Source: Panopea generosa (taxonomy: Eukaryota > Mollusca > Bivalvia > Adapedonta > Hiatellidae). From it: a stretch of DNA of 64,000 nucleotides. The stretch covers positions 248,001-312,000 of the forward strand of contig CM055900.1 of assembly GCA_029582155.1 (NCBI GenBank). Reading direction: 5' to 3'. Position 1 is the stretch's first letter; each line of letters opens with the position of its first letter. Both the position numbers and the translations under genes were made by a program. Shown here piece by piece: positions 11,881-45,000 of the stretch. The notes beneath the pieces were generated by a model that worked only from the letters and a program-made list of their open reading frames with translations, did no database searches and was not told the DNA's origin.

Positions 11881-12829
11881 AACTAGTACTTCGCAAAAGT
11901 TTGGCTATTGGTATTGGGTGTATTAAGGTTTTTTTTGTTTTATTTGGTTGGGGTATGGGTATTGGGAGAAGTTATATTTTGACATTAAAATCTACAATAT
12001 TAGTACCCACACAAATTTCCTATTTTTGTATTGACTATAATTATAAAGTATTGGTAAAGTTTGACAAAGTGACTTTCAACGTCAAAACCAAATCCACAAA
12101 ACGATTATTTAAGGTGAAACTTTTATTCTTCCCGTCATAGGTGAGTCAGCGGTCGGGGAGGACCACCCCCGTTATACTGTAGAAATAGCGATAAAGTATA
12201 AATATTGAAAACTTGCAGTAAATGTGTCAAGTATATGTGATGTAAAAATGTTCTTCAATTTTAAACAATATATTTTATTTAATAAACCATTAAATTCTGT
12301 GATTAAGAGATTCATCTTCAAGAGCTTATTATAATCAATTATAGTTTAGTATATTATCTTTATATATTAATTCACTGAGTATTTGTTTGATAATGGAACC
12401 GACATAAATTGTTATTTTGCCGTTTAATTCAGGTTTGAACGAATTTGGTAAATACCGAGTTGTTTCTATAATTAACAGTGTCAGTAAAGAAGCTTAAATA
12501 TTTAAAGCAGTCCTACTTGCTATTACAAATAATAGGTTCAATTAGAGAGAAGTTCAATGCTAGAATGCACTGCCGATATACCTGAACGCGATAAGATAAA
12601 ACATGACTCGGTCAGAATTAAACAAATGATTGCTTAAATAAAACCCTCTTCAAAAGCGGATAAGTAGGTAAAATAATTATTTTATTGACCTCACAACAGA
12701 TCCTAGCAAGCTTACATAATGTATAATGTTGACTAGAATGTGAAACCAACTTCAATTTATGTGAGGTTTGGTTAGTTTTTATTTGCTTTCTCGTGTGTCT
12801 AATTAATATCATTTAAAATATTTAATTTA

Positions 12830-14300: not shown

Positions 14301-16160
14301 TAAGATATGGTTATATTATATCTTTCTGTTTATACTCACTTAGCATCAGAACTGCGGTAATAATAGAATAAAAATAAATAACGATTTATGTATTTGAACT
14401 TTAAAAGTGTTTTTCTCCCATGTGTATACATGCACATGATAGAATAAAAAAGACAACCGCTATATGTCGTGAGCAGAGTATAATGCTAAATATAAACATT
14501 TTATGTAGAGATTAACGTCATTTCCAACATACTACATGTTATATATGGCATACCATTATATTGGTGGATGCATATACGAGACACAGAGTAGAACAAATAG
14601 ATAACAAATTATTTTACATAAAAAAATTTTTCCTCCAAGCTATTTTCGACCGCAACCCTGCAGTGATGAGCCTTTACTTTAAATGATATTGAAACGGAAA
14701 CGAAGACATTTTAGCCATAGAGGATTTTATATGAATTGGTTATAAACAAATAAAAATATGTTGAGATTTAATTATATGGTATATAATATATTAAAGTACC
14801 TCTTACTCTATAAAACAACACCATTCGTTATTTAAATGACATATTTTTGTTCCAGACAATTGAGCATAGAGCATATCAAAATTACATTATTTATCGATTA
14901 TCTTATTGATTGAGTTTAACATCATATTATATGTAATTACAAGCCAAGGTCGAAACAATTACGACAATAAATTTTACACCATTGAGTAATTATAACAGAT
15001 ATGCAATATAAAGTACTTCATTCAAATAAACAATTATTGTTTTTCAATACCAATTTCCAAATAGTCCCTAAAAATGAGTTATACCACAGATGCCTGTTAT
15101 ATAGACTAATTTATATGATAATTTTCAATTAGTCATAATTATGTTAAAGACGATTGCTATAGTTTTTGTCACATTTTTCCAATGGATAGACTTTTATAAA
15201 ACTTCCTAGTAATTAAGTTTATTTTATGTTCATGCAATATCTGAAATAAAACAGACATGTTGTCGTACATATAGTTTGGTATTACCCCGTCCTGGACAGT
15301 TGGCAAAAGAATGAAGATTTAACAAGTAATGGGGAAAAGATATTCAAAGTTGTTTACATCAAGTATTTAATTAAAACTTTACATGTATGCATGAATATGA
15401 TATTAATTTTCATGGAAATGGTAATTATAAGTTTGAATGTAACTATTTAGGGTTTTTTAAAACAAAGTCATTTCGACAGAGTGCCAATTGTTTTTCTATT
15501 TTGTAATAAAAATATAACGTTTTTTATATATATTTGATATTGTGTATGGACAAATTTTGCTTAAAAGCACATAAAATACTTTCTGATACCTATACTAATG
15601 ACAGTCAAAATAAAATATACACTTTACCGCGTTATTTGAGAAAACATAGCTCTTAAAGTATGCCATCGTTAAATAAACTGCAGTTGCAAATATTAATGCG
15701 TTTATACATATTTATATAACAATTTAGATTTTTATTACATTTAATATTCAGGTTAAATTGCTATCAACAATTATTTTATACCAGTATGCATATTTCATTT
15801 ATTGAACACAATATAAGAGACCAATTTTAGGAATATCCATAAATGATTGTGCCATCCGAAATGGGATCAGTTGTAGTATAGCGGTAAGTAGTGACTCTGG
15901 CCTGTCTCGACAAAATTGCTTCCTTTTGTGCGCGGAGTTGGTGGGCATGAAAAACTAAAACAATATTCCTTAACTTAAAAGTTGTCCAACACACTATAAA
16001 AACAAAATTTAAACACTCGTTCTTAAAATGTTTATACACTTGGGGAAAAATGTCGCATATCTTTAATTTCACATCAAAACAAACTGCATTAAATCATTTC
16101 ACTTACTGAGTGATGCCGTATACATATTTCTTTATTGATCTATCATCTTAACATGGGATG
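14300..16160. other. AT-rich A1 interior, no gene
   Basis: This is very AT-rich DNA with only weak, gapped similarity to 28,560-29,740 in A2. It has no supported gene, array or inverted repeat. The 81-codon antisense frame at 15,827-16,072 shows no recognisable family. Confidence 0.5.
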
Positions 16161-16419
16161 GAAACAATATGGACATTTCTCTTATTCCGCTGGGTGTGTC
16201 CATCGCCCACTCCACCGGTGGGGGGAAACGTTGATAGGTGCATTAATTTCATATTTAAAAAACAACGGAACACGCGTGGTAACACAATTTTAAAAAGGGC
16301 CGTTATTTGAGTTTATGTTTTTCTGAACATGTTTTATTGAATCATGAACTGGCACTCCCATACCTAAATATTACCGCATTAGAAGTAGAAATATAAATAT
16401 TATTCAATAACATGAATTA

Positions 16420-16660
16420 CAAAGCTTATTTCACATCTCCTGACGTCAAAATATACTTTTAGAATAAATTTAACCGCCTTGAGATAGATGTGCCATCAAG
16501 TCATTCTATCACCCAAAGATGAATTATAAACATTAAAAGTATTAGTAACAGTAAAATGGTAAAAACTGTTATAAAGCTCATTTTAGCTCTTTTTACGTCA
16601 AAATGTATTTTAAGAATACATTTAACCGTCTTGAGATCGTTTAACATCCAATTGTGACTT
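16420..16660. repeat. Local tandem duplication of about 150 bp within A1
   Basis: The segment acaaagcttatttca...taaccgccttgagat (about 16,420-16,490) recurs at about 16,573-16,645 with substitutions. A2 has only a single copy (30,022-30,090), so the duplication is private to A1 or one copy was lost in A2. Confidence 0.8.
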
Positions 16661-17864
16661 ATCTAGAGTGATCAATTCTCACTATTGTGTGAACTTATCG
16701 TGGCTTGTAAATAACTTACAGTAACGAGTTTTTATTTCCAATGAAATTCAGAACAAAATGACGTCACTGGATTGCGTACGTGTTATTAAATGCGTCTCTG
16801 TGGGACACTACAATCAAATGGGTAATTTTATCTGTATATCACACTAGTGTTCATCCAGGTCATCAACAGATGAGAAATTGTGTTGAAATGTAAATATAGT
16901 CATTCTAGAATGATATACAGCAAAGTATATTGTCAGTTTTAATTGGCAGCGAATATTTATGATGACTTAGTAGTGTTAATGGATCTTCAAAGATATAATG
17001 GTACAAACAATTAGGTTATAGAACGTGGAATCTTATGGTGTCCTTTAACAATTTACAAGATAGAGGGCGTACTGGGAATTAAGACCTTTGACGTTGATAG
17101 TTCATAAGGTATAATTTACAATTTTAAGATATAAAAAAAACATACGTGCTGTGCGAAATGATCAGGATATGTAAGAAACGATCACACAAATCATTTCAAT
17201 CACTATTCATAATAAATTGACCATCAATTACTCATTTGTACTACAAAGAAAGAAGAATACGACTATTTGATTTAATTCTCGCTGTTTTACAACAAATACA
17301 CAGGCATACATTCATTGTATTAATATAAACTATGATTTATTATAAAGTGCCACTAATAAGTCAGGGTTATGAGATATTATGTCAATTAAAGCAAACAAAC
17401 GCACAGTTCACACATATATGAGCAGTCATATAACTTGAGTTCAAATAAAGACGGAGTTTCGATGGGCACTCCACCAAAATGTAAGTCCATCAGTGGTGAT
17501 TGTATTACTGATGTTTCAAATCGTGACCCTTTTTGTCCTTTCTTCTGTATTTAGGTTTATACCAATTATTTAGTTATGCTACGACCCCTGTTCACCGTCT
17601 GATTCAAATACTTTGAAACGTTAAACAAGTTTTGATTGAAAGAATATATTGGAGAATGACAATTGCACCTCTGACACACAAATATCAATGTATAAAGATT
17701 CCGACGAGTGATTACTACTGTTACGTTCTATACATCTTGTCTAAGCTTTATGTTAAAGATAAATGGTTAAACAGTTTGATAAATAAATATTGCACTTCAT
17801 ATCATTTTCGTAATAACCTTGTAGCAAATTTCTTTTTTAACCTGACCAAGGGTTAGTGTTAGCT

Positions 17865-19572
17865 TTGGGCAGCGTAGTGGATTCAGTGTTGGACAGCATA
17901 GTGGATTCAGTGTTGGGCAGTGTAGGGGATACAGTGTTGGACAGTGTAGTGGATGCAGAATTGGGCAGTGTAGTGGATACAGTGTTGGGAAGCGTAGTGG
18001 ATACAGTGTTGGGCAGCGTAGGGGATACAGTGTTGGACAGCATAGTGGATTCAGTGTTGGGCAGTGTAGGGGATACAGTGTTGGGCAGCGTAGTGGATTC
18101 AGTGTTGGACAGCATAGTGGATACAGTGTTGGGCAGTGTAGGGGATACAGTGTTGGGAAGCGTAGTGGATGCAGTGTTGGGAAGCGTAGTGGATGCAGTG
18201 TTGGGCAGCGTAGGGGATACAGTGTTGGACAGCATAGTGGATTCAGTGTTGGGCAGTGTAGGGGATACAGTGTTGGGCAGCGTAGTGGATTCAGTGTTGG
18301 ACAGCATAGTGGATACAGTGTTGGGCAGTGTAGGGGATACAGTGTTGGGCAGTGTAGTGGATACAGTGTTGGGAAGCGTAGTGGATGCAGTGTTGAGCAG
18401 CGTAGTGGATTCAGTGTTGACAGCATAGTGGATTCAGTGTTGGGCAGTGTAGGGGATGCAATGTTGGGCAGCGTAGTTGATACACTGTTAGGCAGTGTAT
18501 TGAATAGAGTGTTTAACAGTGTAGTGGATACGGTGTTGGGCAGTATAGTGGATAGATTGTTGGGCCGTGTAGTGTATATGGTGTTGGGCAGTGTATTGGA
18601 TAGAGTGTTTGACAGTGTATTGGATACAGTGTTGGGCAGTGTAGCGGATACAGTGTTGGACAGTGTAGTGTATACGGTGATGGGCAGTCTAACGGATACC
18701 GTGTTGGGCAGTGAATTGGATACGGTGTTGGGCAGTGTAGTGGATAGTGTGTTGAACAGTGTAGTGTATAGAGTGTTTGGCAGTGTAGTGGATACGGTGT
18801 TTGGCAGTGAAGTGGATAGTGTGTTAGACAGTGTTATGGATACAGTGTTGGGCAGTGTAGTGGATACGGTATTTGGCAATATAATGGATACAATGTTGGG
18901 CAATGTAGAGGTTACGTTGTTGGGCAGTGTTGTGGATATGGTGTTAAGCAGTGTTGTCGATACGGTGTTGGGGCAGTGTACTGGATACAGAGTTGGGGCA
19001 GTGAAGTGGATACAGTGTTGGGCAATTGTGTGGATACGGTGTTGGACATTGTTTTGGACAGAATGTTGTGCAGTGAAGTGGAAACGGTGTTGGACAGTGT
19101 AGTGAATACGGTGTTTGACAGTGTAGTGGAAACGGTGTTTTGAGTGTTGTGGATACGGTGTTGGACAGTGTAGTGGATACAGTGTTTGGCAGTGTAGTGG
19201 ATACTGTGTTGGACAGTGTAGTGGATACGGCGTTGGGCAGTGTAGTGGATACGGCGTTGGGCAGTGTAGTGGATACGGCGTTGGGCAGTGTAGTGGATAC
19301 GGCGTTTGGCAGTGTAGTGGATGCAGTGTTGGGCAGTGTAGTGGATACTGTGTTGGACAGTGTAGTGGATACGGTGTTGGGTAGTGTAGTGGATACGGCG
19401 TTGGGCAGTGTAGTTGATGTAGTGTTGGGCAGTGTAGTGAACATTGTGTTGGACAGTGTTGTGGATACAGTGTTGGATAGTGTAGTGGATACGGCGTTGG
19501 GCAGTGTAGTTGATACAATATTGGGCAGTGAAGTGAATAGTGATGGGCAGTGTATTGGACACAGTGTTGGGG
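17865..19572. repeat. 24-bp satellite array, about 71 copies
   Basis: The unit is built on TTGGGCAGTGTAGTGGATAC plus AGTG. A higher-order repeat of 192 bp (eight units) is present: 18,014-18,205 is repeated at 18,206-18,397, the first six units are identical and the last two differ. Units to the right of about 18,480 are more varied (gttt, aatggat and similar variants). Because the period is eight codons, all frames stay open for long stretches on both strands, including a 599-codon antisense frame of eight-residue repeats. I regard these as non-coding. Confidence 0.97.
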
Positions 19573-21512
19573 ACCATACATTCTATATAAAGTCATACTA
19601 GTGTTTTAAAACGAATATTCGCTAATATAATGACAATGTTTATTTCTCTGTTTATACGATTTTGGTGTCATAATCATTTGGAAATTAACCAGATAATTCA
19701 TCCAAAAGTAGTCCCCCAACCTAAATATGACCGTTCATTGATATTCGTTCTTAGAGCATTATATAATAAGATTTTAAGTTGGTAATTTACGACAAAAAGG
19801 TAAATGTTATTTAATCGATATAGCCGTTATATCTGAGAACAGATAATTCGTTTGTTACGTTGCGATGGAAATATTTTATATATAGTAATAAACGCACTTA
19901 AGGATTAATAGAACAATGATGATATTTCATTAGACTTTGTTAATGTATTTGAAATCTGCAACTTGATCGTGTAACAATGCTATCTACGCTGATACTTTTG
20001 TTCCATATCAACATAAACTAACTCGGAAAGCGCAGTGTTTTCGATAATGAATTTATATCTAAATTATTACAACATTCTTAATTAAAACTTTAATGATCAT
20101 TATATAAACGCAATATATGCTTCAAAACATAGTTCAGACGATACTCCCTTATCTTATAGCATAAAACCTAGAATCTGCCGAACTCGACCCTTAGCTTCGA
20201 CTCCAATCCTAACTGCCTATCAAAACCCCAACTCAACCAGCCTGTATCTAAGACCACACTATTAGATTTTTCAGTCCATTTGCACAGTAGAGTGACAGGT
20301 AATATAATTAAACATTTATATTTTTAAACCTGGGTTCGCAATATTCTTGACAGACCATCACTCATCATATATGACCATTTAACCTCTTATTAGAATGCGG
20401 ATAATTAGCTAAGTATATACATGTAAATGATATTATATTTTCCAATTCACTAACGTAATGTTTACCCAATAATACTCGATTAAACTAATATTAAAAAGAT
20501 AAATATTGAGTGACTCTAAAATACTTGATGCTTGCTCTGCCAATTTAAAACTGTTTTTCATCAGAGCATCAAGTACATTTGTCTATATATGAATCGATTG
20601 TACTATGAATGTAAATATACAATTTGCAAAAGCAAATTGAATGTTAAAGTTAATCATATGTATTTATCATATTGGCACTGTTTGGTATCTTTCCAATATA
20701 ACCAGTCTACACATTTTAAAGCTATAAGAACACATGTACATGCATGAAAATGCACTAACAACGTTAGGTGTTATGTTTATGCAATGAGTTATAATGCAGT
20801 TAAAAGACATTTAATAAACTGCAAAAAATATTTACACTTTTAAACGTAATGCGCATTTTGTGTCGTTTTCGTATGCCTCTTTTCAAAAACATAAACAAAA
20901 TTATTGGACAGAATACATGCCTTTGGTGTATTGAAACTTCTTACCTGCATCATATAGATATATAAAAGTGTTGCGTAAGAGATCATTATAATTGCCCTTC
21001 GGAAAAGATCATTATGTTTTCAAATCAGACCTAGTTTTTAACGTTTGTTTTTGAAATGTAGATAAAAAGAATTATTACTGTTAAAATACATGTATCCATG
21101 TAATTTCGAAATTTCAGTGGAACTTAAGTGTGCAATTACATTATATCTTCTAGCGTGATTAAAATGTCCGATACGTGTAAGGAACCAATTATGTTGAAGT
21201 AAAAATCCATTTCCAAAAGTTTACAATACTTAAATAATTAGTTTTACCACTCACTATCTGTGTATATTAGTTGAGTTGTATATGAGTTGATTTTTGTAAA
21301 ATAGTTGAAATGCACAAAAATCACCCACACGATATTTATTTATCATTCAGCAAGGTAGGATATTTAATCTATAATATACTAGAATGTTTGAAACATATGG
21401 TAATGGTTAGGATCGTAGTAGTTTACTCGAGTTTTATTGAATCTGTTCCTGGGAAAATGAAGCATGCCACACATTCACGACCGAGCACCAGCTTAAACGT
21501 TATTTACTTAAT
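19573..21512. other. A2 anchor region, no gene
   Basis: This matches A1 at about 9,060-10,290. For example the block around cataatcatttg (19,668) pairs with 9,113, and the block around ttgtatatgag (21,270) pairs with 10,168. Both copies lack open frames of note and share the same non-coding character. Confidence 0.7.
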
Positions 21513-25900: not shown

Positions 25901-27125
25901 CAAGTGGAAAACTCAAATACGACAGTCTCCGTGTACGTTTATGATTTTGCTATTGTTTCGTTTTGGCTAGCGCCCGTGAGCGATTAATATCGATGATATC
26001 GCATCAGCTGCTTCCGAAACAATATAATCTCTCAAACTATAATAATTGAATTCCATTTATCATCTAAATGATCAAAGAAAAAAAAATTTACAAACAAAAT
26101 CGAAATCTCTGTATCGAAATCGAAAACTGTACACGCAGTTAAATCATGTACAAAACTGCCGAGCTTTCCGTTATACGAGTTACTGCTCTGATCAGAGACA
26201 TATGTATATATTAATTAAGTCACGGATCAGATCGTTTATGAGACTTACATATTTATTTCAAATTTTGTCATGTGCAATTATAGATTTATGTGGTACTTCT
26301 TTAAAAGGACGTATAAATCATCTATATTTAAACTTCCAACCACTTTAAGGTGATCCATTCATTCTCCCCGTTATAGGTAAGACATCGGTCGGGAGAACCA
26401 CCCCGCCCCCAGCATTTGCCCGTCACAGTCTACAAACAATTTTATATTATAAACATTGAAAACAGGAGTAAAGTGTAAAGTACATGTGATGCAACACGTT
26501 TTTACATTTTTTTACTATTTAATAAACCACACGATTCAATGGTTAAGAGATCATTCTTAAAGATCTGAAATTAATATAGTTTAGTACGTGGTATTTATAT
26601 AATGTACTAATTCACTCTGTATTCATACAGTATGATAATAAGACCGAGTAAAATCGAGCTAGAAATCGGCCTGAGGTACTAATAGGTAGGTTTATATGGT
26701 TTTATTGCACAAAACGATATATATAAAATACATTATAATGTAAGTATCGCGTTTACCTGCTGAGGTAAGTTAGAAGTCTTCCCAAATGAAGTCAATTTTG
26801 AGAGGCATAAGAATTTATTTTTAAAAAAAGTCATGTTTGCGTTTACAAATAACAGGTTCAATCAGAAAGAGTTTAAATAATAGAATGTACTGCAGATACC
26901 ATACTTGAACAAGATACAAACATGAGTAGGCCAGAATTAAACAAACAAACAATATGTAACACATTATTTCATTGTTACCAACATAGAGAATAAATAAATG
27001 TTGGTTAAATGTGTGGCTCAGAATGTACTTCAATTCACATAGGATTTGGTTAGTTTAAACTTGCGTTTCGCTGTGTCTGTTATTTCTCTTCAAGAAAATA
27101 TTTAATATAGATTGAAATATTTGAT

Positions 27126-28560
27126 TTACACATCCACTCCCACCCCCAAAATTGTTTCTTTCCAGTGGAGTACAAACATAACATAAAAAATAGTCAGATA
27201 GTGGTCTGCATCACCAGTCATGGCTGTGTGAAAAGTAGGGTAGATCAGCATACCATTATACTTTAATCCTCGGACAATACAGCTAAACAGGATTGCTACG
27301 AAGCCATTTCTGCATAAATAGACAAAGGTTAGCCCGTTTCCAAGTTCTACATGTGTATGATCAAACTCCTTCCATGTGTTTCCTGGTAAGTATATATGAT
27401 AAATTAAGATTTTCGTCATTGCATTGTCATGGTCAGAATATTTCACATCAAATTACAGCCGATGTAAAGGATCAGTTTTACCTTTTGGGATTACCAAAAT
27501 ATAAGTTTTCTTAAGTCTATCAAATATGTACACCGACAATTAAAATAACAAAACAAACAAAAGCAAACTGATACATAACTTTAAAGAAACACTCACACAC
27601 AAAAACTATGGAATAACCATTAATTAACCGATATATATTGTAGTTTTCTGTCGTTTTTCTTTATAATGGTATTAAACTAATTTTCTTATCATGTGTAACT
27701 AAAGATGATATGTATCGCGCTAAATAAGTAATACAGAGTTATCATAAACGGCCTGCATGTGTATTCAACTATAAAGATCAGCACCGTGTGTCTTTAAGCT
27801 GTTACTGACGACGGTGATGACTAATTTAGGAACACACTTAGTTAAATTTAAAGATTCGATAACGGTGGATAAAACGCATTCAAATGAAATTGAGCCCAAA
27901 ATCGTGATTGAATTCGATTTGATAAATACTATTATCATCATGGGTTGATGTGTTCATTGTTAAATTTTACTTTCTTGTTCATAATATGACGATCGTTTGG
28001 AATTTAAAGCGAAACCTTCCGTTGGAAACTTCCAGTAGATAAGTCGTTCCGCGGTTGCACGTCTCGGGAGACGCACGTCGTACTACAATTACTACTTGTT
28101 TATCTTACCTATATCATCTCTGCTTCGGCCAGTAACTCATTCGACGACTTCAAGTATGAGGAAATGTCAAAAAGCTTTTACTGAAAGCCAAATGTTATGA
28201 GTAACGTTTGCCCCTTTTGTTCACTCTGACCAATATATCATAGTAGCTTACATTAGATTCAGACGAACGATTACATATGCACACCTCCCAGACAGTTTTA
28301 TTAAAGGCAACTGCGCGGTTTTATCGAAGAATAAAGGTTCAAAACGTGTATAATACCTATATTGGAGCATGTTTTTATTGCCAACAATCAAGCACGAGCT
28401 AATACTTGTCTAATTGATCAGACACATTTATAGATGTTTTAAGAATTGTAGTTGCCAAGTTCATAGATAGGTTATGACGTTATAATTCTCCAAAGACCAG
28501 GAGAACATCCATATTGGATAAAAGGGCACTACCAATTTGATATACTGTCATAATCGCTTA
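27126..28560. repeat. Best-conserved A block, A2 copy
   Basis: This is the partner of 12,830-14,300. An antisense frame of 106 codons (27,126-27,446) aligns collinearly with A1, where a stop interrupts it at the VYLC position. Differences are spread over all codon positions, so I do not call a gene. The final 280 bp (28,271-28,550) is almost identical to A1. Confidence 0.8.
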
Positions 28561-30949
28561 TGAAAAAGTATATCCGTATATCTGTTTATACTCACTTAGC
28601 ACTGTGCACTGTGGAAGTATTAGAACGATTTATGAACGATTTGGCAGATATTTATTTTTGAAAGACGAGTTTTCTCTAGTAATACATTAAAATTAAATCA
28701 AGTAATGCATTTAGTTACCCATTTTAACTAAATCAATGCAATCATTTAATTGACCTTTGAAAATATGAATGAAATATGGATCGCAGGAAACTGGGCACGC
28801 AAACTCAATAGTATTTTCGTCAGCATGAACAAAAGAACTGGCAACTTTTTTGCGTTCAGAAAAGGTCCATACGATAATATTTCTGTAGTTCTGAGCACTT
28901 ATGTAGTATTTTGCGTGAAATAATAAGGTAAATCGATAGTATAGACTGATGTAATTCCTTCTTTAAAAGACACAGTTTTATTCCAGACATTTGAGCATAG
29001 ATCATATTGAAATAACATAACATATCGATAATTTACTTGATTGATTATAACATAATAATATATGTCATTTCAATCAAAACTCAGAACATATACGACAGTA
29101 AGCTTTAAATCAGAGAGCAATTTTAATAAACATTAAAACATATTTTTATGTGCACAAATGTGCAAATAAACAATTATATCTGTAAAACCAGTTCTCTTAT
29201 TTTCCCTAAATAAATCGTTTTACCACTGAGTCTTGTAATATACGTAGACTGGTTTATACACGTTAACATACATTAAACTATTCATCTTATTGAGTGATGC
29301 CGTTGACATAGTACAGTTGTAGGACCATATCTACAAAATTACAAGCAAATAGAAAAACTTATTGCAATATACAAAAACAACCTTGAGTCACACGAAAATA
29401 AATGGGGAAGACATGTAAACTATAATAACGAAAACTATACTGCATACAGCTTCTCATCTTCTCATCTGTAAATTTTCACTTGTCTTATCTTTGCTCTTTC
29501 TCTACTTTCTTTTACCCGTTTTTAATATTTCCTTTCTAATTAACCCTTAAAATATAACTTATTAGACATCGTATGCCTGTTATAATATCTAAAGTTATTA
29601 AGTAATGTGTTAAATTTCAAAATTACATAGATTGTATTGGTACATAAACAGTTTTCGTATATCATTGTATTGTGTCTTACATGAAATAAAATATATTTAT
29701 CACCAAAAAAAGAAGATAAAAAAGGAATATCATCCTGGTCTGGAATGGAAATTAGACAATCAATTTGGAATTTGTCTAATTCCCCTGGGTGTGCCCACCG
29801 CCCCTACCTCTGTAGAGGAATGTTGCTTTATGATATGTTTCAAAACACTAGAACACGCGTGGTAGCATAATTTTAAAAAGGACAGTTATATGATTTGTTG
29901 ATTTATCTGAATTTGTTTTGTTGAATCATGAACTGGCACAATAAGATTACGTCAACGTATATGTGTTATCATGTCACTCCCATTACCTACAGTTTTATAA
30001 GTATCATTCAATGTTATGGATTACAAAGCTCATTTTAGATCCCTTGACGTCAACATATATTTTAAGAATAAATTTAACCGCCTTGAGATCGATTAACATT
30101 CAATTGTGACTTATTTAGAGTTATTTGTTCTCACCATAGTGTGAACTAATTATGGCTTGAACAAAAAATTCCAGTATAGAACTTTTATTTCCAGTGAACT
30201 TCAGACTAATATGACGTTACTAGTATACATATATGTTATTAAATGTCTCTCTGTGGGACAATACCATGGAAAGGGAATTGTATTCGTATCTCACACTAGT
30301 GTTCTTTCAGGTCATTAACAGACGCGAAAGTATGTTGAAATGTAAATACGGTCATTCGAGAATGATCTACAGCAAAACATGTTTTCAGTTTGAATTGTCA
30401 GGGGGTATTTATGATGACGTGGACGTGTTAATGGATCTTCAAAGATATAATGGAACAAACAATTAGGCTAAAGAATGTGGAATGGTTCAGCGCTCTTAAA
30501 CAATTTACATAATGTAGGGCGTTACTGGGAATTAAAACATTTCACGTTTATCGTTCATAAGTTATTATTTATGATTTGAAAATATAAAAAAAACTTACGG
30601 AATGTGTTAAATGATCCAGATAATTTGTAAAAGATCAAACACATCTGGCCATTAACTATTTATAATAAATTGACCATCAATTATTCATGTATACTGCAAA
30701 TTAAGACGTTATTAGGATATAGGGGTCTCGCCCATTTACAAACAAATAAACAGGCATATATACATACATTATATTGATATATACTATGATTTAATAATAA
30801 CGAGCTCCTCCTAAGTAAAGGTTATGATATACTATGTCATTTTAAGCAAACAAACGCACAGTTCTGCAAACATATGACAATAAAAACAATAAAACAATTG
30901 CCATTTAAACTACTACATTATACATTATTTACATCAAAGTTGTCAAAAA

Positions 30950-33900
30950 ACAATATGTTCATATATGTATAAAAGCATTAAGCCTTGGTGGTCTTAACGC
31001 AAATAAACTTTTTGTCATTTTCATTCTACCGAGAAGGAAATAAATATCAAATTTAAAAATCGAAAAGTATTTTTATCATTTTATTTTATATTTCGTTTTC
31101 AATTTGAATATATTATTGTGGTGCTTCTGTTTTTTACGAATATTAAAAAATAAATCAAATTTGTTTCTTAATGTCCTGATTCAGAATCACAAACTCATTT
31201 TATTTTAAACATTAGAGGTTTTAAACAGAAATTTCACTAATATTGATACGATAATAAATAACAATGAACTATTTACCAAAAAGATTTTTTATGAACGCGT
31301 ATATAATACCAGCAAAATAATCGATTAAACTACGCTTAACAACTCATCTCAAAAATGTGTAGTAAGATCTGAAAACAATAACAAAGACCATCTTCCTTAC
31401 AACTTGGTCTTATTCGTAATTAAATAGTAACACGAATGTGCTGTTGTTGTAAGTAAACACAACAGAATATAAACAATGAGACTATAAATGTTAAATTTTC
31501 CCAATTGTGAAAATAGGTATATATTTATCCATCGGAAGATTATCGTAAAAAAATGATATTGTTTTGTTAGTATCTGACGAACTTAAGACACTGTGATGAT
31601 GAATTAGATTTGTTGGATAGTACATTGAAATTCTTATTAACATTACCATTTTAAAAGTAACTTTTCTTTCAGGATTCTATCATCACATTGTTCTTACGTG
31701 GCATTCCGACTATGTCTTGCAATAATATATTGTCGGAGATGAAATATACATTTATAAGGGATCACATATAATTCCATTTACGACTTCTCGTATTGTGGTT
31801 TGATGATAAGAGCAGACTGTGTCACAAACCATGGCATCAATGTTTTGATTCCGACTCAAAATGTCAAAAATGTCAGATTCAAATAACATATTTTTTAATA
31901 ACCAAATTACTATATTTATTTGAAGAAACACACAGTGTTATGTTTATTTAACGGAAATATCACAGGATCACAGTTCCTACCCAAAATTGTATCTTTATCG
32001 TGTTTAACAAAGATAACAAAGATGTAAGATGTATTTTGAGTGTGAGCCCGATTCTTAACTCAAAGTATTGATGGACGTAAGACCTGGTTATCTCCCCTGC
32101 CATAGTATTACCATTGATCGTTCAGATCTGTTCACACTGGTATTATACTTTATTGTTATTAACAGTACAAGCATTGTTTGTTTTATGATGTGTTGGGAAC
32201 AGTATTCTCTAAATGCTATATTTTCGGTTGCACACATGTTTTCTCGTTGGGTGTATACGAATTATTGACATGTCCGTATGACGACTAAACTTTTAAGTTA
32301 ATATAACTATAGTAAAGACATTTTGAAACCTGTTTAACCGGTCTTTATACCGCTTACGGTAATTACTGATGTATATGTCATAATATGCTTGGAAAACCAT
32401 TATTAGCCGAAACTGTTGCTTAGTTAAGCTTGTTTTGTTTCATTGCAGTAAAGTGTATGAATCTAATAGTTTGATTAACAGTAATAATGTTCACATGACT
32501 ATAATATGCTCTGCTATCAATTTTCCTTTTATTGATGATATACTTTTGAGACATGTTATATCTTGAATTGTTTATTTTATAACCTTCCATTTGTTATTCC
32601 CTAGTTGGAAAGCTAGTAAAGCTTAAAAACTAATTATCAAGCACAACTCCAATAGAATGTATTTCAACATTTATTGTTAGGAAAATGATTAATACATGGC
32701 AGAAAAAGGTCATATTTGTTATGAGTCAAATGTCTCAACTTTTGGGAGTAACGTAAATGTATGTAAATCTCAACTATTATAAACTTTAGAAAATGAAAAT
32801 ACTTTTATAGTTCTTGGTGTTTGGGTTTATTCTTCAATTTACAAAAAGAAAGTATTTTTATATATAAAGTTTTGGTAGTAAAACGTTTTTTTATGCTAGC
32901 TTCAATCCATGGATCGTTAGTTCGAACCACCGCCTGGCCATAGTCTCTGTAATAATAAGGGGTTATAAACTTTGTTCTACGACAATGAGAATGGTCAAAT
33001 TGCCAATTTCCCTGCAGTATGGTCTAACAGCCCAATGCAGGAAATAAAGCTGCCAAAATACTCTGCAAGATACTGAGATTGATAAATACGCTGCAAAATG
33101 GTCACATTTCACTATTCTCTTGCAATATGGTCGAAGTTTTCAAATACCATGCAGGAATGGCCTAAACGCTATTTACCCTGCATTATTGTCAGGGATTGGA
33201 AATAGCAAAAGAAAAACTACGAATATAATGATATTGAATAATGATATTGATAATTCTAATTAATGTTTTTTGTATGTATTGTTACAGAAGTTTCCATCTT
33301 GAACGCATATTTACATGTTTTTGCACATCTAAATATCATCTCTATCAATCATGTTATTTTGCCCTAAACAAATCTTTATCTTGCAGTACGATTAAAGTTT
33401 TATTGTTTTCAAAATTGTATTCATTAAATGCTTAAAGAATGAACAGTATAATCATATACAAATAATTTTAATATTACAAAGTATAAATGAAACACATGGA
33501 ATCATGACGACATAGATTACACACGTATACATTATTGGTTAAAATGATTGCATTAACAAGGTGGTAAACTAATCAATCAATTAATTCCAATCTTTCATGA
33601 TTGCTTCGTTTAAACATACGTTAAAAACGTATCGAAAGTCAATTAAATATGCATAAAGCACTCGAACAAGCTGTAGTCTGTAGAAGAAACATATTAAATT
33701 AAATTTATCAAAATTGCTGAACCATTATTGGTATATCTTAATGTTTTAAGTTTTCGATACATTTTCTTTACATCTGTTGAGTTAAATCACACTTTTTGGA
33801 ATGATTAAATGATCGAGCGAATATATTTATATATAAGTGAATAAATTAAATGTGTAATGTAATTAATGCAATCAGGCACTGTAATCACAAAACATCTCAA

Positions 33901-35243
33901 CTTCAGTATACGCCCAATCTCACATATCGTTTTCATTTCACATAACTATTACTGAATAGCATTACATCACTGTCAGTAAGTGTTATTACATTGATATCAA
34001 TAACCCTGGTCTTCAACCATTTATATAGTATTGTTAATAAAACAATTCTGAAATATGGGCTTAAGTGCTTAATCACGTTATGGATACGGGAACAGATCTT
34101 TTTGCATATAAACATAAAACGAGAGTCCTGTTTGATTTAAATCGGTAGATTATGGTAATTCTTGAAATTGAATTGAATTTCTGGTCCTTTGTGATCACTG
34201 AGCTCGATCAGTGTTGTTTAGAAACGGAAAACTGTTTATCCAAGTACCAGGAGAAGGAGCGTTCAACATTACTCATGACACAATAAAACCAAGTCGGCTA
34301 CATATTTCCTTGTTGCTTTCTGAGCGCTTCCATTGAATCGTTAACATTAATCGACTTTAACTTCTTTCATAACAAAATAGGTGCTGCGAATAAACATTCT
34401 GAAAACGAGCTTATATCAAATGTTTGATAGTAAGGTAAAACAGATGCACCTGGATTTGACGACCAGCTTTCAAGTGGAGTGGAAGTTTCGCGTTTTAAAA
34501 AGCAAGGTCGCCAAACTTGTGTTCATTGAATAAGTATCATTTATATATTTCATACGCAGATAAACTTCTACAATTATTTATGGCAACAAGTCGAAGATTT
34601 TCGGTGGCGTCCAACTTCAAAATTGCTGTACACCATCTAGCATTAAAAACAAGCTGGTAATAGTCCAGATGTCTTGTGCATAATATGGATTGTATCTCTT
34701 TAAATAGTTATACCATGTATAAATTGTATATTTAATACATTTACTAAAGCGAGGATGTTGTGAAACGATAATTTGACTTATTATTGCAGACTTCTCATTT
34801 TATTGAAGGTTGTATGTTCACTACACCAGCTTGTAGCTCGAAGCTTATCTGTGTATTAATACGACCGGATTTATGTGAATATTTCATCATTTAAAACGCT
34901 AAACACTTCAGTTAATTTTAGTTAATATTTAGTGATATTATTTTTTGGTGAATTAGTTACAAAATAAGCAGGAATAAAATTGTTTGATATGCATTTAGTA
35001 ATCCATTGTATGGACGATTGAAATTTGTTAAGTCTTGATAAGGAATATGCATCAAACAATTGCTCCATATCATAGTTAACTTCGTACAATGTAGAGGTTA
35101 ACTGTAAAAACACAAAGAACTTGTTGAAAGCGTTTTACATATATGGATGTCACGCTCTATTTTTGTAAGATATGTTTAGCAATATATATTTTTTATAATG
35201 TATGTTTTACTTAATACCTAATGCTAGCCTTTTAATGTATGTT
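30950..35243. repeat. Copy X1, left part
   Basis: Blocks match the other X copies: 31,170-31,270 with 49,825-49,915 (gtcctgatt...), 31,400-31,480 with 40,735-40,800 and 49,290-49,340, 32,330-32,700 with 51,870-52,250, 33,884-33,920 with 41,697-41,730, 34,160-34,270 with 41,975-42,070, and 34,790-34,920 with 44,132-44,268. No intact gene is visible. A run of CCTGCAxxATGGTC-like short repeats lies at about 33,000-33,180. Confidence 0.75.
32905..32965 (+). mobile_element. tRNA-related SINE remnant (B-box-like)
   Basis: gatcgttagttcgaaccacc carries a TTCGA B-box-like core. The following tctctgtaataat and ctttgttcta segments recur at 52,490-52,550 in X3. The shared position implies insertion before the X copies separated. 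No cloverleaf can be folded, so it is not a functional tRNA. Confidence 0.4.
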
Positions 35244-36689
35244 TAGTTCGGCAGATACAGCACGGAACCTTGCACGGAAGTGTATAGTAAATGTTTTTGG
35301 TGATTATGGTAGTTTAAGCATTGCCTATCAAAATTAAGCTTGATAACATCTTATCATCATTGAGCATTTTGAAATATTCAAGATGGCCGCCAATATGGCG
35401 ACAAATGAATTGAAAATTAGGTTTTCCGCACATTTTAGTTTTAAAAGTGTAAATAGAATGTTTTCAATTAATTGATTTTATTAAGTAAATATGTCACTAC
35501 CATCTAAAATATAAAACTTACACAATTGACAATATATGCGAATAAAATATTCTTGAATAATGTCGGATATTGTCCACATTTCCCACTACAGCGATATAGG
35601 CATATATACAGCTGTAACAGTTGTAATACCTTGGTGCAGTCTATCTATGTTCTTATCAAACTACATATTTTGTAATTAGTAATAACTTTCACGTGGAATA
35701 GAAAAAAGGTAAACTTTATGTTCATGTTAATGATAAATATACAGTTGTCGGTCATAATGAACATGCTATTATTTGCTTGGGTAGCGAACGTGTTGAATGG
35801 AAAGAAGTTCCCTGAGAATGTCATATCATTATTTAAGCAGTTGAGCTGTTTATGCGGAACATTTTAATAATAAGAGTTGGAAACTGATCTAACAATTTCG
35901 CCGAGAGAAGCAAAACAACGAAGTAATGGGTAGATGATGTAATAAAACCTTGTTTATAATGATTATGTACATCCGAGCTGAGAGAAAAGCTGACAACTTT
36001 GCATTTGGTAGCAGTTAAGCTTATGATGCTATATTTTTTCGAAGCTAGCCATATATGAATTACGCACGGTATGGAGTCTACAACCTCAGGTCCATGGAAA
36101 GTCCTTCATAATTTTATGAAGAATGATATGCTTATTGAAACCACAATCGTGAGATATAAAATGACAAGAGGGGAATATTTGGGATTATTCTGAAGTCAGA
36201 ACCCTAACCCTATTTAATTTGATTTATTTGTTATAATATATATGCCATAAATACAAAGATACATCAAGCACATTAACATACAATATTACAGAAGCATTAA
36301 CATGTATTTTAAATAATATATCAAACTAGTTATCTATTTAATATAATATATATCAGCTATCACAGATTAATATTTCATCTTGTTACACAAGTAGACAATT
36401 TAGTTAAAATATTGATTAATAATTTTGAGACATATATATTTCACAGGATAATCCATAAAGTTTTACAACTTATTTCCAATGGGGCCCTTTTAAGAATACT
36501 GTCATGGATAAAAATATTGGCATTTATTACAAAACTTATGTTCATCTCTGTTTCATATCACAGAAATTATACTTTGTTATTTATCAAGTACATGTATAAT
36601 TAAAGTATGTATCACAGCTATAAATCAACATTAATAACAATAAACAGCTTTTTAATAAATAAATAAATTTCTTCATTTCTTTTTTAAAT

Positions 36690-37430
36690 TAGAATGTTAT
36701 GCTTTTTTCTATTTTTCCTTAATAGTATGGGGTAATTGATTCCAATCCAGAGTGCCATTATAAAAGAAAGTTGATTTTGTAAAACTATTAACATATGGCA
36801 CAATCAAATTAAATGCATTTCCTCTAGTTGCATAGACAGCTTGCAAACGTTTCTTTAAGATAATACGGACATGAATTGTTAAAACTCTTATGAACTTGAT
36901 TCGATCTGTATTGTCTATTTCTATTTTCAATGCTAAGTATTCCAAGATCTTTAAAATCCGACGGCGGACAAAGAAGCTCTACTATCATAGCTGTATATAA
37001 ATCTAATCATTTTATTTGGAACAACTTGTTACTTTTTCTTAAACGTTTTTTGTAAGACCACTATACCATGAAGAACATGCATAATCAAAATGACATTGTA
37101 TTAAAGAATTACAAAGAGTCTTCCCAAGGGATAAATTTAAGTAGTGTTTATGTCTATATATCTATTTTTTTTCTAGAATTAACCTTTTAAACAATATTGT
37201 TCACAATGGATGTAGCAGACAAATCATTATCCAATATTGCACCGAGATATTTGACTGATGTTTGTGCTTGTATGGTGTGACCATTACAAAGCACTGAAAA
37301 TTGTTTTACTTTAGCAAGCCTGCGATTTGGCACAAATAATATACATTCTGTCTTGCCAAGATTAAATGACAGTTTATTGTCTATTAACCACTTATTATAA
37401 TTCATTGCCTAAAACTAATGACGTTAGGAT
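36690..37430 (-). mobile_element. LINE reverse transcriptase fragment, antisense and deleted
   Basis: On the minus strand, NKWLIDNKLSFNLGKTECIL (about 37,340-37,400) is followed by VKYLGAILDNDLS (about 37,220), then TLCNSLIQCHFDYACSSWYSG (about 37,055-37,116) in another frame. The C-terminal FTKSTFFYNGTLDWNQLP lies at about 36,730-36,790. This is the thumb and C-terminal region of an animal non-LTR reverse transcriptase. The stretch between 36,950 and 37,050 is shortened and the frame is broken several times. It appears nested inside the TIR element. Confidence 0.8.
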
Positions 37431-37599
37431 CTTTATGTGAGAAAAGAATTCATAGAAACTAAGATGTTTACCTAGATTTCGACAGATATTCGCCATTCAG
37501 CACAAAAAGTATCACATGCTCTAGTACAGACATGCAGGGACTCAACCTTAGTATGCCAATTCCAGCTCAGAAAATAGTTTTAAAAGTAACAGAAACGAC

Positions 37600-38010
37600 G
37601 CCAACTGATAGCATTCATGTGGAACCGTGAAAGACATACACACGCTCATAAGCTTGTTACATATATCGGAGAAAATGATATACCAGTTGAGATAAATAAG
37701 TATATTGTTATTAAATGGGATGACATTAAAATCACACACGAGGAGGCAGATAATATCCCTTGCACAAGTGATCATAACAGCACATATGAACAGAGGCATA
37801 ACAGCAATTTCAAATGATACTGATGTATTTGTACTTTAACCTCATCATTATCTTCAGGAAACTCTAATAAATCTGTGCTGAAGGGGATCGCATGTCAAGG
37901 AACTGTAAACATAAATATAACGACCATGGGCTGTCTGGTTGCAATAACATGGTTAGGTATTATGGTATCGGAAAATGAAAAGTTTTAAAACATATGAGGC
38001 TTCAGTAGTC
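37600..38010 (+). pseudogene. Remnant of a transposon protein with HEEAD/DTDV/GC...GIGK motifs
   Basis: The reading passes through NDIPVEINKYIVIK and THEEADNI (about 37,670-37,755). After a frame change come AHMNRGITAISNDTDVFVL (about 37,780-37,838) and, further on, GLSGCNNMVRYYGIGK (about 37,928-37,973). I recall an uncharacterised transposon-associated animal protein type with HEEAD, DTDV and GCDT...GKGK in this order. The GCDT position reads GCNN here. Stops and frameshifts separate the pieces. The recall of the family is from memory and unverified. Confidence 0.6.
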
Positions 38011-38399
38011 ACTAAAGTTTGTATGCATACTTTAAATACTTTACCACTAATAACAGATTCGGTAATTTGTTTGAAATGCAAAAACAGCTCACATATAGGT
38101 ATGTATATGGAAACAAGCATTGGATTCTGACCAACAAAGCTTTGCTACCAAAGCACTTTCCTAAGAAAGTTCCAACAGAGCATTTTCTCCTGCAGAATAA
38201 TTGAAAATGATCAAATGTGAACACCCGATATCATAAAATGACATTCAGACATTCTGGATATTCAAATAAATCAAATGGCAGTATTTTTAAAGACCATGGC
38301 TTTTAGTTGCAACTGTATTTGTAACCTAAACACCAAACACATCAAGCGTATGAATATGTTTATACTTTATAGTAATTTCCATCTTAAATGCATTTCCAA

Positions 38400-38965
38400 C
38401 AAATTGGCAACCATTTTGAACGCCATCTTGTTAATTTTAAAATACTCAATGATGACAAAATGTAATCCAACATAAAATCAAAGAACTATATATAGACTTT
38501 CATTTTAGCAATAAACTATTGCTATACACTGTCATGTGTGAATAATTTTTACCTAACAGTAGTTCTCATTCAAATATTGCATTTCGATTAAATTATACAG
38601 TTTCATGTATGAATAATTTCATACCTAATAGTAATTTTCAACTAAATATATCATTTGGAGCAAATTGGAGGCCACTTTGGGTACATTGTACCATCTTGTT
38701 TGTTTCGAAATGCCCAATTATGACAAAATATCATCTCAGTTTATCATTTTAACATCAAACACATCAAAAGTGTCCTTAAGAATAATACATAATAGTAATT
38801 ATCATCCAAATATTGGAATTCGAGCAAATTGGCGGCCATTTTGGACGCCATCTTGTTAATTTCAAAATGCTCAATGGTAACAAAGTGTCATCCGACATAA
38901 AATCAAAGAACTATATATAGACTACCATTTTAGCAAAAAAAAATACTATACACTGTCATGCAAGG
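38400..38965. repeat. Subterminal direct repeats of the TIR element
   Basis: A segment of about 130 bp (38,408-38,536, with gccatcttgttaattt and caaagaactatatatagac) recurs at 38,833-38,960 with few changes. A shorter, weaker relative (caaattggaggccactttgg) lies at about 38,661-38,705. Subterminal repeats of this kind are usual transposase-binding sites, but that role is inferred here. Confidence 0.8.
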
Positions 38966-39000
38966 TTCCGTGAAAGTATCCCGGATTATCTGCCGGACTA

Positions 39001-39940
39001 GTTTACTTATATATTGATAACTACATATGTAAGAAAAGTGCAGCAGTTGCTGAAGGAAGAAAGGGAGATCCCTGATTCATTCTGTGGTTTTCACTCCAAC
39101 AATAAAATTGAATGACATATTTAAAATGTGTTGAAAAATACCACAAATCTAGTTAACATTTAGTCCTTTTGCAAATATAATTGATAGGGGTATACGGTTA
39201 AAACGGTACTGAAATATTCATTTTGTAACTTTTATCTTATAAGTAAATATTATATATTAATTTTTTTCTTCACCAAAATCACATGTTTAAAATAAAGACA
39301 GATATTGATATTAGATATATAATGAAGTTTGCCATTTTATCACTTTTATCATCCAAAATAACATTGGCTATAACAAGCATTGCATAATGTTTTTGAATTG
39401 TAAATAAGCAAGCAATGCAAAACGGGTTTTTACATAAACCGTTTGCCTGCATCGATTATTAATTATGACTTGATTAACGTTATTTTAAAGTGTGTCATTA
39501 CGCCAACGTTAGTGTTTGGTTAGATTACATAACTACATATAACTATATTACAAATACTATTATACATGGTTGTCTGGTTGAAATATACTTGCATATGTTA
39601 AATAAATCTCCCCTTCATATCATATAGTAACATATATTTTCAAAATATAGATTGTTATTGATGTTTGTGGTATGGAGTGTTCTCGTGATTTACGTGCGAC
39701 GCTTAAACATGTGTGTCCAAACGTTGTATAACAAAGTCAATATATTTTCACAATTTATTAAATCTTACAGTTTTCAAGTTATTTACTAATATCAAGATTA
39801 AAAAATTAAGATAAAGGGTTGCAAATCAGCAAAAGGAACAAGAACATAACTCTTCTTTGATTCGTTTCGTAAGTAAATAACAAATAATGGGTGTCAAAAG
39901 TACTAGTCAGTGCTGTGTTTTTCTTTCTACATAGTTTTTC
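39001..39940. repeat. Copy X1, right part after the transposon
   Basis: X1 resumes after the transposon: gaaatattcatttt (39,211) and aagtttgccatt (39,325) match 44,778 and 44,880 of X2. Later sequence up to 39,940 is AT-rich with no gene. Confidence 0.55.
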
Positions 39941-40159: not shown

Positions 40160-43100
40160 CTGATGGTATAAAGCAGTACTTCGTTAAAGTTTTATTTTTC
40201 ATATTAAAATAACCGAATTTAAATAAATTGTGACTTACTGCATCTAGAAATAAATACACCGGTAAAGTTTCGAACACTAAGTATTATGGTTCTCTTATTT
40301 TTATCTTACATTATTGTTTTGTTGATGATTAGTTTATTAACTTGACTTTTATAGATATTAAATAACATAGACCACTAAGCTGGATGTGCATTCATCCCGA
40401 TTCGTAATTATTCAGAATAAGGTAATGTATATAACTGGAAATGAAACGTTCACAACGAATCCCGCACAAAAGCATAAACATAAGGGAATCATTTCATTTT
40501 AAATTTAAAACAATTGAATTCTAAATAGAAATCTTATCAAAATTGAAATAATGATTATAACGAACAAGTTAACAAGATTTTCTGTGAGGATTATGCATTA
40601 AAAAACAGCAAATGTGTCAATTAAACAACACTTAAAAGGCTCCCTATCAAGTTTTTTACAGGTTCTGAGAGCAGTAACAAACATATGATGTTGCACCTAA
40701 CATCGTTTTAAGACACAACTTATCTGATTGTATTCGTAATTAAATTGTAGCGCGAATGTGCTATTTAAAGTTCTAAGTGAACACAACGGGAACAATAAAA
40801 CTCTCTATGCAGTTTTGCATTTTCCAAGAGCCAAATGTCGATTAGACCAATTACTGAATTTGAAATATACTACTGCGATAAATTTGTGTATTTTTGTTGC
40901 CTTTATCATTTTACTGGAATCTATTAGATGGTTTTACAGTTTCAAATTGAAACGAAGTAAATTGTTCCTGTTTTTCTCAAAGTGCTTTTTTTAAGATTTG
41001 TTGTTTTTTTTTTGTTATAATAAAATAACCTAAATTTGAATGGAATGTGATAAATATACAAATAAAAATCGATTTTTTCGATACACATTAATTAGATTAG
41101 TGTGAAGTTCGTACAGTGTGTTCGTTTTTGTTAGGATATAGGCTTAAAGTACCAAACTAACTTAACTATTGTTTTCACTTAGCTGCGTAAGTATATATTA
41201 CACCGTTCATAAAACATCCTTCTGGTACGCATATTAACATATTTATACACATCTAATAATCAACTCCATCGACCATGTTGTTTCACTCTAATACAAATCT
41301 TCCATGAACGATATGGCATTATTTGTTAAAATCGTTATGTTTAACATCCAGGTGAATAACTAATCAATCGTTAACTTCATTATATTATCATTATTTATGA
41401 TTGCGATATTTAAAACATACGTAAAAAACAACGGTTGAGTAATTGGTTGAGATGATCAATTACTAAAGACATAAGCCACTGACACAAGTCGTTTTCGGAA
41501 GTAGAAACATAAATCAAATTTACCAAAATTGCCAAACCATTATATGTGCATTTGTGTTTCCACTTTTAAGGTGAAATGTTCTCAATTTCAGATAAACCAG
41601 AGCATTTTGAATAGTTAAATGATTTAGCGAATAAATTATAAATAAATATCAAATGTGTAATTTAATAAGATTATAAATGCAATTAGTCCCTGTATTCACA
41701 AAACATCTCAACTTCAGTATACACTCAAATAACCTTTTCAATAACCAATACTTATTCCTGAACAGCTTTAACATCGATGTTTCTTATGCATTGCTATGTG
41801 GAATATTTGTCTTTAAACATTGATGAGTTTACTCATGAAGTTTTGAAATATGAATTTAAGTGCAAACTCATTTGAAGATGTTTTGTAAATGCAGGATCTG
41901 GTCATTTTACATATATACATAAAACGGCAGTACTGTTTTATCTTAATTGGATAGAATGTGTTCATTTACGAAAATGACTTTCGGGTCCTTTGTGACCAAT
42001 TAACTCATTCAGTGTTGTTAAAAAACGGATAATTGCATTTTGGGTACTTCGAGTTCATTAAGCTCATTCAACAAAGGCAGTCCGCCTACGTTAGTACCAG
42101 TACATTACCGCTCACGAATTAGTCTCACTAACACTGTGTTTACTATATACATTTGCTGTGTTTTTTTTAGGATAATATTTTTTGATATTGAAATACTGAA
42201 AAAAAATCCGAACCGACCTACCCAATTTTTAAAACTAGTAAAAGGAGACAGTTATTAACATTAGTTTATTGTTGACATTTCCTAACTAATAAAATTTAAT
42301 TAGTGGACATATTCACAACAGGCAAGTGTACATTTAAAATGATTTTATTTAGAGTGAAACCTCTGTATCACATTGACGAAGGAGCTGTGCTGTAGTTTCT
42401 GATTAATGCAAAGAAACACGATGGCAGTCATTTTACATGTGATGATAAAGTAATGCCGTTGGTCATACGTCACATAATCGATCGGAAGGACGTTGTTGTT
42501 GTTGTATCAATATCTATTAACTCTACATTCTCTTGTCATCGGTCAATTTTCTTGCTTCTTTCCGTTAAATCTGTCGCTGACTTATTGATTATCATTTCTT
42601 GCTATGCAATTGCTTAATCGTCTGAGTAAAACATCTTAAGAAAGTCAAACTTGATGTTAAATTGATATTGTTTCTATCAAACTAACACAAACCTTTGAAA
42701 CTAAAAAACGTTTTAGACTTTAGGTGACCACATGCGAGGGGTGATCAAAATGTACGTGAGTTATTGTAGCGGTATGCTCCATTTATTGCATAATTGAAGA
42801 TGAGGTAGTTTAATAAATGTACAAAATTACATTCTGCGTTCATCAGTAGATAATTTAGTCAACACCGCGAACGCGGAGCAATGCGATGACGTTCTTGACG
42901 TTCATCTGAGTGAACGAGAGTAGTTCTATCATTGATGTAAAACGCCTACTTTTCAATGGATATTTCATCTAAAATTTTAATGTTTACCTTACTGTATCTA
43001 CAATACCACTGTTGGGCAATATTGAATAAATAAACATTTGCAATATTTAATGTGCTTATTTATAGACAAAACATACATGTTCGGCTATTAATACTGATAG

Positions 43101-45000
43101 ACACCTCTCGGCCATTTAGCATCTCGATATCAATGCGTTATTTCAATTAATCAAAAAAACAAAATAACTGAGGAATAATTGCAAAATTCATTGGAGCAAG
43201 ATTATATAATAGTCCATTCAGAACCGTTATTTACTTGTTACGCACCTATTTTGGATAACATATTCTTCAACTGACGTCAAAAGCGCTTGCCCAATAATTG
43301 GTCATGTGCCTCTACGTTGATAGTCCATAATGTATTTCCGGTGGTCTTTAAACGTTAGTGTCACTTGAAAATAGGTAATATGTTTTCATATTCTTCTCCT
43401 ACATCTTTTTCATTGTCTGCGTTGAAGTCATACACAAAACTTTATAACTGGACCTGTTTCCGTAGATTCGGATGACGTAATAGATATGTCGTATATTTAA
43501 ACAGAATACATTTTAACAATATAGCAATGTTACGTAGAAACGAAATTAAAGGTATGCATATCATTTGCGATCAGAAACAGTGATTAGTTATTGATATTTT
43601 AACAAAATAAAATGTAAGTTATCTTTACACTTAAAAATACTCATTTATTAGTGTTCAGTCCAATTTCCAACAATCAGCTGGTTATGATGTTATTCTGGGC
43701 GTAAGTGTGCAAACAAAGTTACCCAGCTCAATATACTTCTTCCATTCAATTATATGTAAATTAAGTTGCTCGCCAAAATTGACCAGTTCAAAGCGCGAGG
43801 ATAAATTACTATCTCATGACTTCACATTTGTTTCTGACACGTGCTTGCGTGCTGTGATGTTTAGTCCACCTTCTTAGGAAAGAAATAAGTCTGAATACTC
43901 CCATAAGAGCAGTATAGATTTTTAAACTGAAAGTGTACTTGTAGTGGACATGAACATTCCCTAGATCATATGAAAATGAATTTTGAAAACTTACAGCGTT
44001 CTATGTAGTTTGCTATATCATTTGAGATAATATAGACAAACCCGCCAGTAATAAAACGAAATATGTACGTATACATATAACAGCATATAAAACCTATACG
44101 TGCGCAGGGTTATTTGCATAAATGTTTGTCTCTCGAGATCTCATTTTATTGACGGTTTTATGTTCACTGCACCAGCCTGTATATGAATGCATGCCTGTTT
44201 GTTTATATGACCGGAAGGATGTGAATATTTCATCATTTATCTTGTAAAATATTTCAGTTAAAGTATTTGTGACAGTTTTAGGCGTAAGCAGGAAAGAATT
44301 AGTTAAAACAGCATTTCGGTAAAAACACTTTATGGACTCTTTACAAATATACATATTTCGAATAAAATAGTTGATATAATGTAGTGGTTAATTGTAAAAA
44401 TCAAAAGGATATTGATTGTGAACGCGTTTTTAACGTATGGATGGAATGCTCGAAATAATGTTTTTATAAGGTATGTTATATTTATATACGTTTATTCATA
44501 AAATGTATTTTACTTATATATTTTCTTATATAATTTGTATTTATAACGTTTATTACTATTGATATTAGCTATATAAGGAATAGCTAACTTAATGTTAGCT
44601 TTTCAGCTATGCCTTACTTATATATATAATTATTAAGTTAACTTAATTTATTGATTGTATGTGTTTTATCAGCTTATGAGTAACTTTGGGAATGGTGGTG
44701 GTGTTGTTTAGATGTATTCTGGGACCTTGATGTCATATATTAACTGTTATGTGTTGAAAAAAGTGCAATTGTAAAAATATTCATTTTAACTTTAATCACA
44801 ACCATTTATTTCCAGTTTCTTTACTGATTTGAAAGTTTCTCAAAAAAGCAATAGATACATCTATTTCGGTCTATATACTAAGTTTGCCATTAAAGCACGT
44901 TCATATCATTAATAATCTAGATCTAATTTAACATTAAACATAACAGGCAAGTGCAATGCGTTGCTGTTTAATTGTTGATAATCCATTTCTAGCAGTGTAT
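40160..45000. repeat. Copy X2
   Basis: It shares blocks with X1 and X3 (see X1). Examples are aagttttatttttcatatta (40,189) with 49,618, gtgaacacaac (40,776) with 49,310, and the LKLKRSKLFLFFS-encoding segment near 40,945-40,985 with 49,550-49,588. The segment at 44,590-44,630 resembles the sequence flanking the transposon in X1 without the transposon. No intact gene is seen. Confidence 0.7.
42735..42762 (+). mobile_element. Possible solo mariner-like terminal sequence
   Basis: GAGGGGTGATCAAAATGTACG resembles terminal repeats of mariner-type elements (gaggggtg..caaaa). No matching opposite end or transposase was found nearby, so this is a weak call. Confidence 0.25.

Follow-up and report, generated by a model that had tools for sequence, protein, structure and literature searches.

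The nuclease of AcademX, a lineage of the Academ superfamily of DNA transposons, is of the XPG type; a literature search, for its part, found no paper joining XPG with Academ. Unnamed animal proteins with the motifs HEEAD, DTDV and GCD...GxGK are also widespread. In the accessible part of its description, AcademX is a DNA transposon with a nuclease and duplications of 3–4 bp, whereas AcademH has a helicase and duplications of 9–10 bp, and the author related this difference in duplication length to the helicase versus the nuclease (PMC10045372). Academ elements have been amplified in bivalves, where 100 curated families with a mean length of 5565 bp are given in the accessible part of a survey (PMC10294476).

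The element considered here lies in a stretch of 64,000 nucleotides of the bivalve Panopea generosa, hereafter the window. It is most probably a dead, internally deleted, non-autonomous cut-and-paste copy of the Academ type, filed in the AcademX lineage by its described features. Its parts, and a segment further to the right that bears on its insertion site, are as follows (window coordinates, with the basis in brackets).

35241–35243, no strand: left target-site duplication, 3 bp, GTT (flank sequence).
35244–35257, plus strand: left terminal inverted repeat, TAGTTCGGCAGATA (13/14 inverted match, genome counts).
35261–35406, plus strand: left subterminal region (inverted match to 38835–38972 and 38392–38475).
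35955–36201, plus strand: putative decayed remnant of the transposase C-terminus, IRAERKAD..., with DMLIETT at 36124–36144 (frames, identity to the copy L025).
36202–37446, minus strand: nested LINE-like insert with RT-like frames (replaces sequence present in other copies).
37463–38240, plus strand: broken XPG/FEN1-like nuclease remnant (broken frames, genome matches).
37737–37751, plus strand: HEEAD, within the nuclease remnant.
37816–37836, plus strand: DTDVFVL, then TAA, within the nuclease remnant.
37931–37948, plus strand: LSGCNN, within the nuclease remnant.
37958–37975, plus strand: YYGIGK, within the nuclease remnant.
38329–38960, plus strand: right-end subterminal repeat units, direct copies of 127, 60 and 45 nt (self-alignment).
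38987–39000, minus strand: right terminal inverted repeat, TATCTGCCGGACTA (inverted match to the left end).
39001–39003, no strand: right target-site duplication, 3 bp, GTT (flank sequence).
44375–44910, plus strand: diverged paralogous segment without the element, with a candidate unoccupied site near 44587–44625 (flank alignment).

Relatives with open frames were found by a genome search with a generic nuclease query, from which the best 150 of 492 candidates were kept. Two of them, L069 and L070, carry transposase and nuclease in one frame without any stop, of 1487 and 1486 aa, respectively. Both end in TAGTC and have 3-bp duplications, and their inverted ends are about 135 bp long. The family to which they belong is less decayed than that of the window element. 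Their 98.8% identity over 6.2 kb, together with the length of their open frames, indicates that this family may have moved recently. Two further relatives, L071 and L072, are 38 and 41% identical to L069, and each has one in-frame stop that separates two long frames; the stretch fetched for L072 showed no TAGTC end. The end sequence TAGTCTGGTCGTCAAACAT occurs at 47 exact sites in the genome, against none for its reversed form. These sites form 23 inward pairs, about 5.6–6.2 kb apart, plus one single end, and 21 of the 23 pairs enclose a nuclease match among the best 150 of 492 candidates. Open frames of 1486–1487 aa without a stop are present in at least three copies of the TAGTCTGGTCGTCAAACAT family, frame lengths varying between copies; the identity between copies refers to the single pair L069/L070.

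In these relatives, a transposase-like region is followed by an XPG/FEN1-type nuclease domain and then by a cysteine-rich C-terminal tail. Upstream of the nuclease, several acidic columns are invariant among the relatives, including those of DNxDHN, FDQP and DLxIE, and we infer that this region is a DDE transposase. The tail of the long L069 frame, which we take to resemble the CXC (TSO1-like) motif, gave no CXC-type Pfam match. The C-terminal third follows the FEN1/EXO1 motif order: the acidic motifs VFDG, DAD, DDTD and GCD...GxGK align in order with FEN1, EXO1 and XPG, at 16% identity in the alignment, and in contrast to these enzymes the nuclease is joined here to a transposase. Compared by hhalign with FEN1/EXO1, the nuclease profile gave a probability of 78, an E value of 1.8e-5 and a score of 43.9; the reversed profile scored 13.5, and the best of 60 column-shuffled decoys 18.6. 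The match of the nuclease profile excludes the N-terminal DGG motif. On these motifs, and on a profile probability that is moderate, the HEEAD...DTDVFVL...LSGC...YYGIGK remnant of the window is classed as an XPG/FEN1-type nuclease. With the nuclease alignment, a PDB profile search found no nuclease, and a Pfam search returned no XPG model among its matches.

Named families were sought for the remnant and its relatives and none was retained. The long protein of the relatives had nothing above the Pfam cut-off, the nearest model being DUF6589 in protein P0002 (E 0.013, below cut-off), for which no paper was found in a literature search. The window remnant had no Pfam match, NCBIfam returned nothing for either part, and the PHROGs search gave no match to the protein. 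A viral home was also considered and rejected, protein P0001 having had no match in one scan of viral contigs.

The likeness to AcademX lies in two described features, which are both observed here: a nuclease encoded by the element, recognized by the FEN1/EXO1 profile match above decoys, and a duplication of 3 bp in 12 of 13 copies, within the 3–4 bp given in the accessible description (PMC10045372). The 6.2 kb of L069 and L070 is moreover near the 5565-bp mean of the bivalve Academ families, as given in the accessible part of that survey (PMC10294476). The window copy differs from AcademX, which is known here by description, in being broken, in lacking most of the transposase and in carrying a LINE-like insert. 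AcademH belongs to the same superfamily but is set apart by its helicase and by duplications of 9–10 bp, against 3 bp here (PMC10045372, accessible part). The group might instead form a superfamily distinct from Academ, which would also combine a transposase with an XPG-like nuclease and have TAGTC ends. The Academ likeness does rest on description, and the curated libraries searched (Pfam, NCBIfam) leave the protein unnamed; such a separate superfamily is nonetheless unlikely, since the nuclease, the 3–4 bp duplications and the length of L069 all agree with what is described for AcademX and for curated bivalve Academ. The Academ-type assignment being retained, the window element appears as an old, broken and ordinary copy, a dead representative of a type already described, of which the ends and the duplication have been corrected and the ends are now exactly definable.

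The element occupies positions 35244–39000 of the window, TAGTTCGGCAGATA...TATCTGCCGGACTA. Its right end (38987–39000) reads TAGTCCGGCAGATA when inverted, and the terminal match amounts to 13 of 14 bp with the TA counted in. A previous sequence-only reading had placed inverted ends with TA flanks at 35246–38998, with inverted subterminal regions of about 180 bp and a broken HEEAD...YYGIGK protein inside. The inverted ends stand, but the TA belongs to the repeat; the subterminal regions do align in inverted orientation, with a score of 77 where none of 500 simple shuffles exceeded 27, but over about 135 bp; and the broken protein was found inside the element, at about 37463–38240. Genome-wide, GTYCGGCAGATA has 449 exact sites (212 + 237) and its reversed control 59; TA precedes 300 of the 449, against 13 in the control. 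Six exact ends on one strand lie within 170 kb on contig C5 (47.09–47.26 Mb), which is probably a local duplication.

This frequent TA is what would be expected of a TA-duplicating element, Tc1/mariner-like or of another TA group, carrying a captured nuclease fragment, and TA duplications are also reported for the fungal PHISTA and ESTA groups in the accessible part of PMC12730594. Such an origin is very improbable. Among the 13 copies with both flanks, the outer 3 bp, beyond the TA, form a direct repeat in 12, which is unexpected under TA duplication, and the transposase of L069, the relative with 1487 aa, has matches in sister copies. TA as the duplication was ruled out by this outer repeat: the TA forms the outermost part of the inverted repeat, and what is duplicated at the target site are the 3 bp just outside it, GTT at the window copy. 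Counted by distinct insertion sites, the repeat is present in 11 of 12, because L077 and L078 have common flanks; L074 is the single exception. The 13 copies comprise the window element, L073–L078, three pairs of loci each taken as one copy (L001/L002, L003/L004 and L079/L080), and L069, L070 and L071, which are members of other families; L072 was left out for want of a TAGTC end in its fetched stretch.

Protein remnant and inverted ends are parts of a single transposon family, and they co-occur in the part of the genome examined, which covers contigs C1–C3 and C4 up to 75.67 Mb (the first 100 of the 449 end sites). This region holds 38 protein matches from the best 150 of 549 candidates. An exact end lies within 4.5 kb of 22 of these 38 matches, as against 38 of 20,000 random positions. 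The ends adjoining protein matches point inward in 29 of 29 cases, and 7 of the 17 inward pairs less than 15 kb apart enclose a protein match among those listed. Decay or truncation may account for the 16 matches that have no exact end within 4.5 kb. Ends and remnant failing to travel together was the outcome looked for against the sequence-only reading, and it did not occur; its expectation that tying the protein to defined ends would point to a superfamily is borne out by this association and by the AcademX-like features. That the remnant, short, broken and without a Pfam name, is a host gene fragment captured by one transposon copy is extremely unlikely and was ruled out, given its relatives in the genome (at least 150 matches, the best 150 of 549 candidates) and the 22 of 38 that stand beside exact inward-facing ends.

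Traces of the transposase can also be recognized in the window family. Residues 770–920 of the L069 protein were compared by tblastn with 49 entries, i.e., 48 loci, several of them overlapping, and the window element; 21 of the 49, in 20 distinct places, matched with E<0.01. The window element itself gave no such match at E≤1. It is 83% identical, over element positions 173–956, to L025, which matches residues 784–914 of P0001 in a single alignment. The order in the window family, transposase tail then nuclease, is the order in L069–L072. The family formerly had both parts, and the window protein is the nuclease half of a larger transposase–nuclease protein.

The later acidic nuclease motifs persist in the window copy, in broken frames. 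The residue following DTDVFVL was compared in 35 copies, chosen by their likeness to the window nuclease remnant: it is a stop in 22, a tyrosine in 6 and another residue in 4, with a gap in 2 and 1 uncovered. L001/L002/L024 (one copy) and the repeats L064 and L067 were excluded before this count, and all carry the same stop. Since 22 of 35 copies stop at this very place, much of the window family probably spread after its nuclease was broken. This is most simply explained by a master copy in which the DTDVFVL stop was present before it was moved in trans; a recurrent change at one codon may be an alternative origin of the shared stop.

The insert between these two remnants had been named a nested LINE. 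It is indeed a repeat of a large and dispersed family, with at least 150 matches (of 1392 candidates) and frames of up to 767 aa, but the name finds no support in Pfam, which gave no match to the insert; the label LINE thus rests on the RT-like motifs. A comparison of the LINE fragment with phages gave no match and is weakly informative. The insert occupies element positions 956–2202, where other copies mostly have about 540–650 bp of different sequence, L019 (30 bp) and L017 (about 970 bp) being outliers. L010 has the same insert at the same place, with 83% identity, so that the insertion is not private to the window copy. Among the matches listed, insert and nuclease remnant also adjoin at C2:96.41 Mb and C16:18.03 Mb, oriented to each other as in the window, and these composites, with that of L010, imply that the composite was multiplied or duplicated after insertion. 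At the edge of the insert, positions 36200–36211 read AACCCTAACCCT, a telomere-like double unit.

The segment X2, at 44.6 kb, had been proposed as the unoccupied site, which holds for the flanks and not for the junction. Taken separately, both flanks of the element align to 44.33–44.96 kb better than all 300 shuffles, but the score of the 120 bp spanning the junction is reached by 49 of 300 shuffles. Searching the genome with the joined flanks revealed no other empty site; of nine matches, two are the window's own flanks, and seven cover just a small portion of the right flank. By these alignments, X2 is a diverged paralogue that lacks the element and in which the precise target is not readable; an exact empty site at X2 was set aside because the junction does not align beyond shuffles.

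More widely, window positions 32175–52252 contain colinear paralogous stretches of 67–78% identity, which suggests duplicated units, some of them about 8–9 kb apart; 33652–34234 pairs in this way with 41470–42035, and 34793–34915 with 44139–44261. A second colinear paralogous pair joins 12108–17421 and 26344–30877 (67–84% identity). Two tandem arrays are also present in the window, one of 24 bp (about 71 copies, 17865–19571) and one of 34 bp (59 copies, 6215–8221), and the bin 16001–20000 has a strong skew of G over C (0.335).

As to the mechanism, the long protein of the relatives, with its predicted DDE transposase, XPG/FEN1-type nuclease and cysteine-rich tail, would act on the TAGTC...GACTA ends. 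It would excise the element and then reinsert it with a 3-bp stagger. The transposase region would work by DDE chemistry, the nuclease might trim ends or flaps, and broken copies would be mobilized in trans. A broader and rather doubtful proposal is that those animal proteins, unnamed so far, in which the motifs HEEAD, DTDV and GCD...GxGK occur are the nuclease half of one large transposon group with TAGTC ends and 3-bp duplications, possibly distinct from described Academ. Its broken copies, the window element among them, would have spread with a nuclease that was dead by then, moved in trans by their relatives.

A protein family that neither Pfam nor NCBIfam names is now tied to exact transposon ends and to a duplication length, which helps annotators to assign sequences of this type to mobile DNA rather than to host genes. 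With 23 end pairs and at least three copies with open frames of 1486–1487 aa in the same genome, the group is open to direct experiment.
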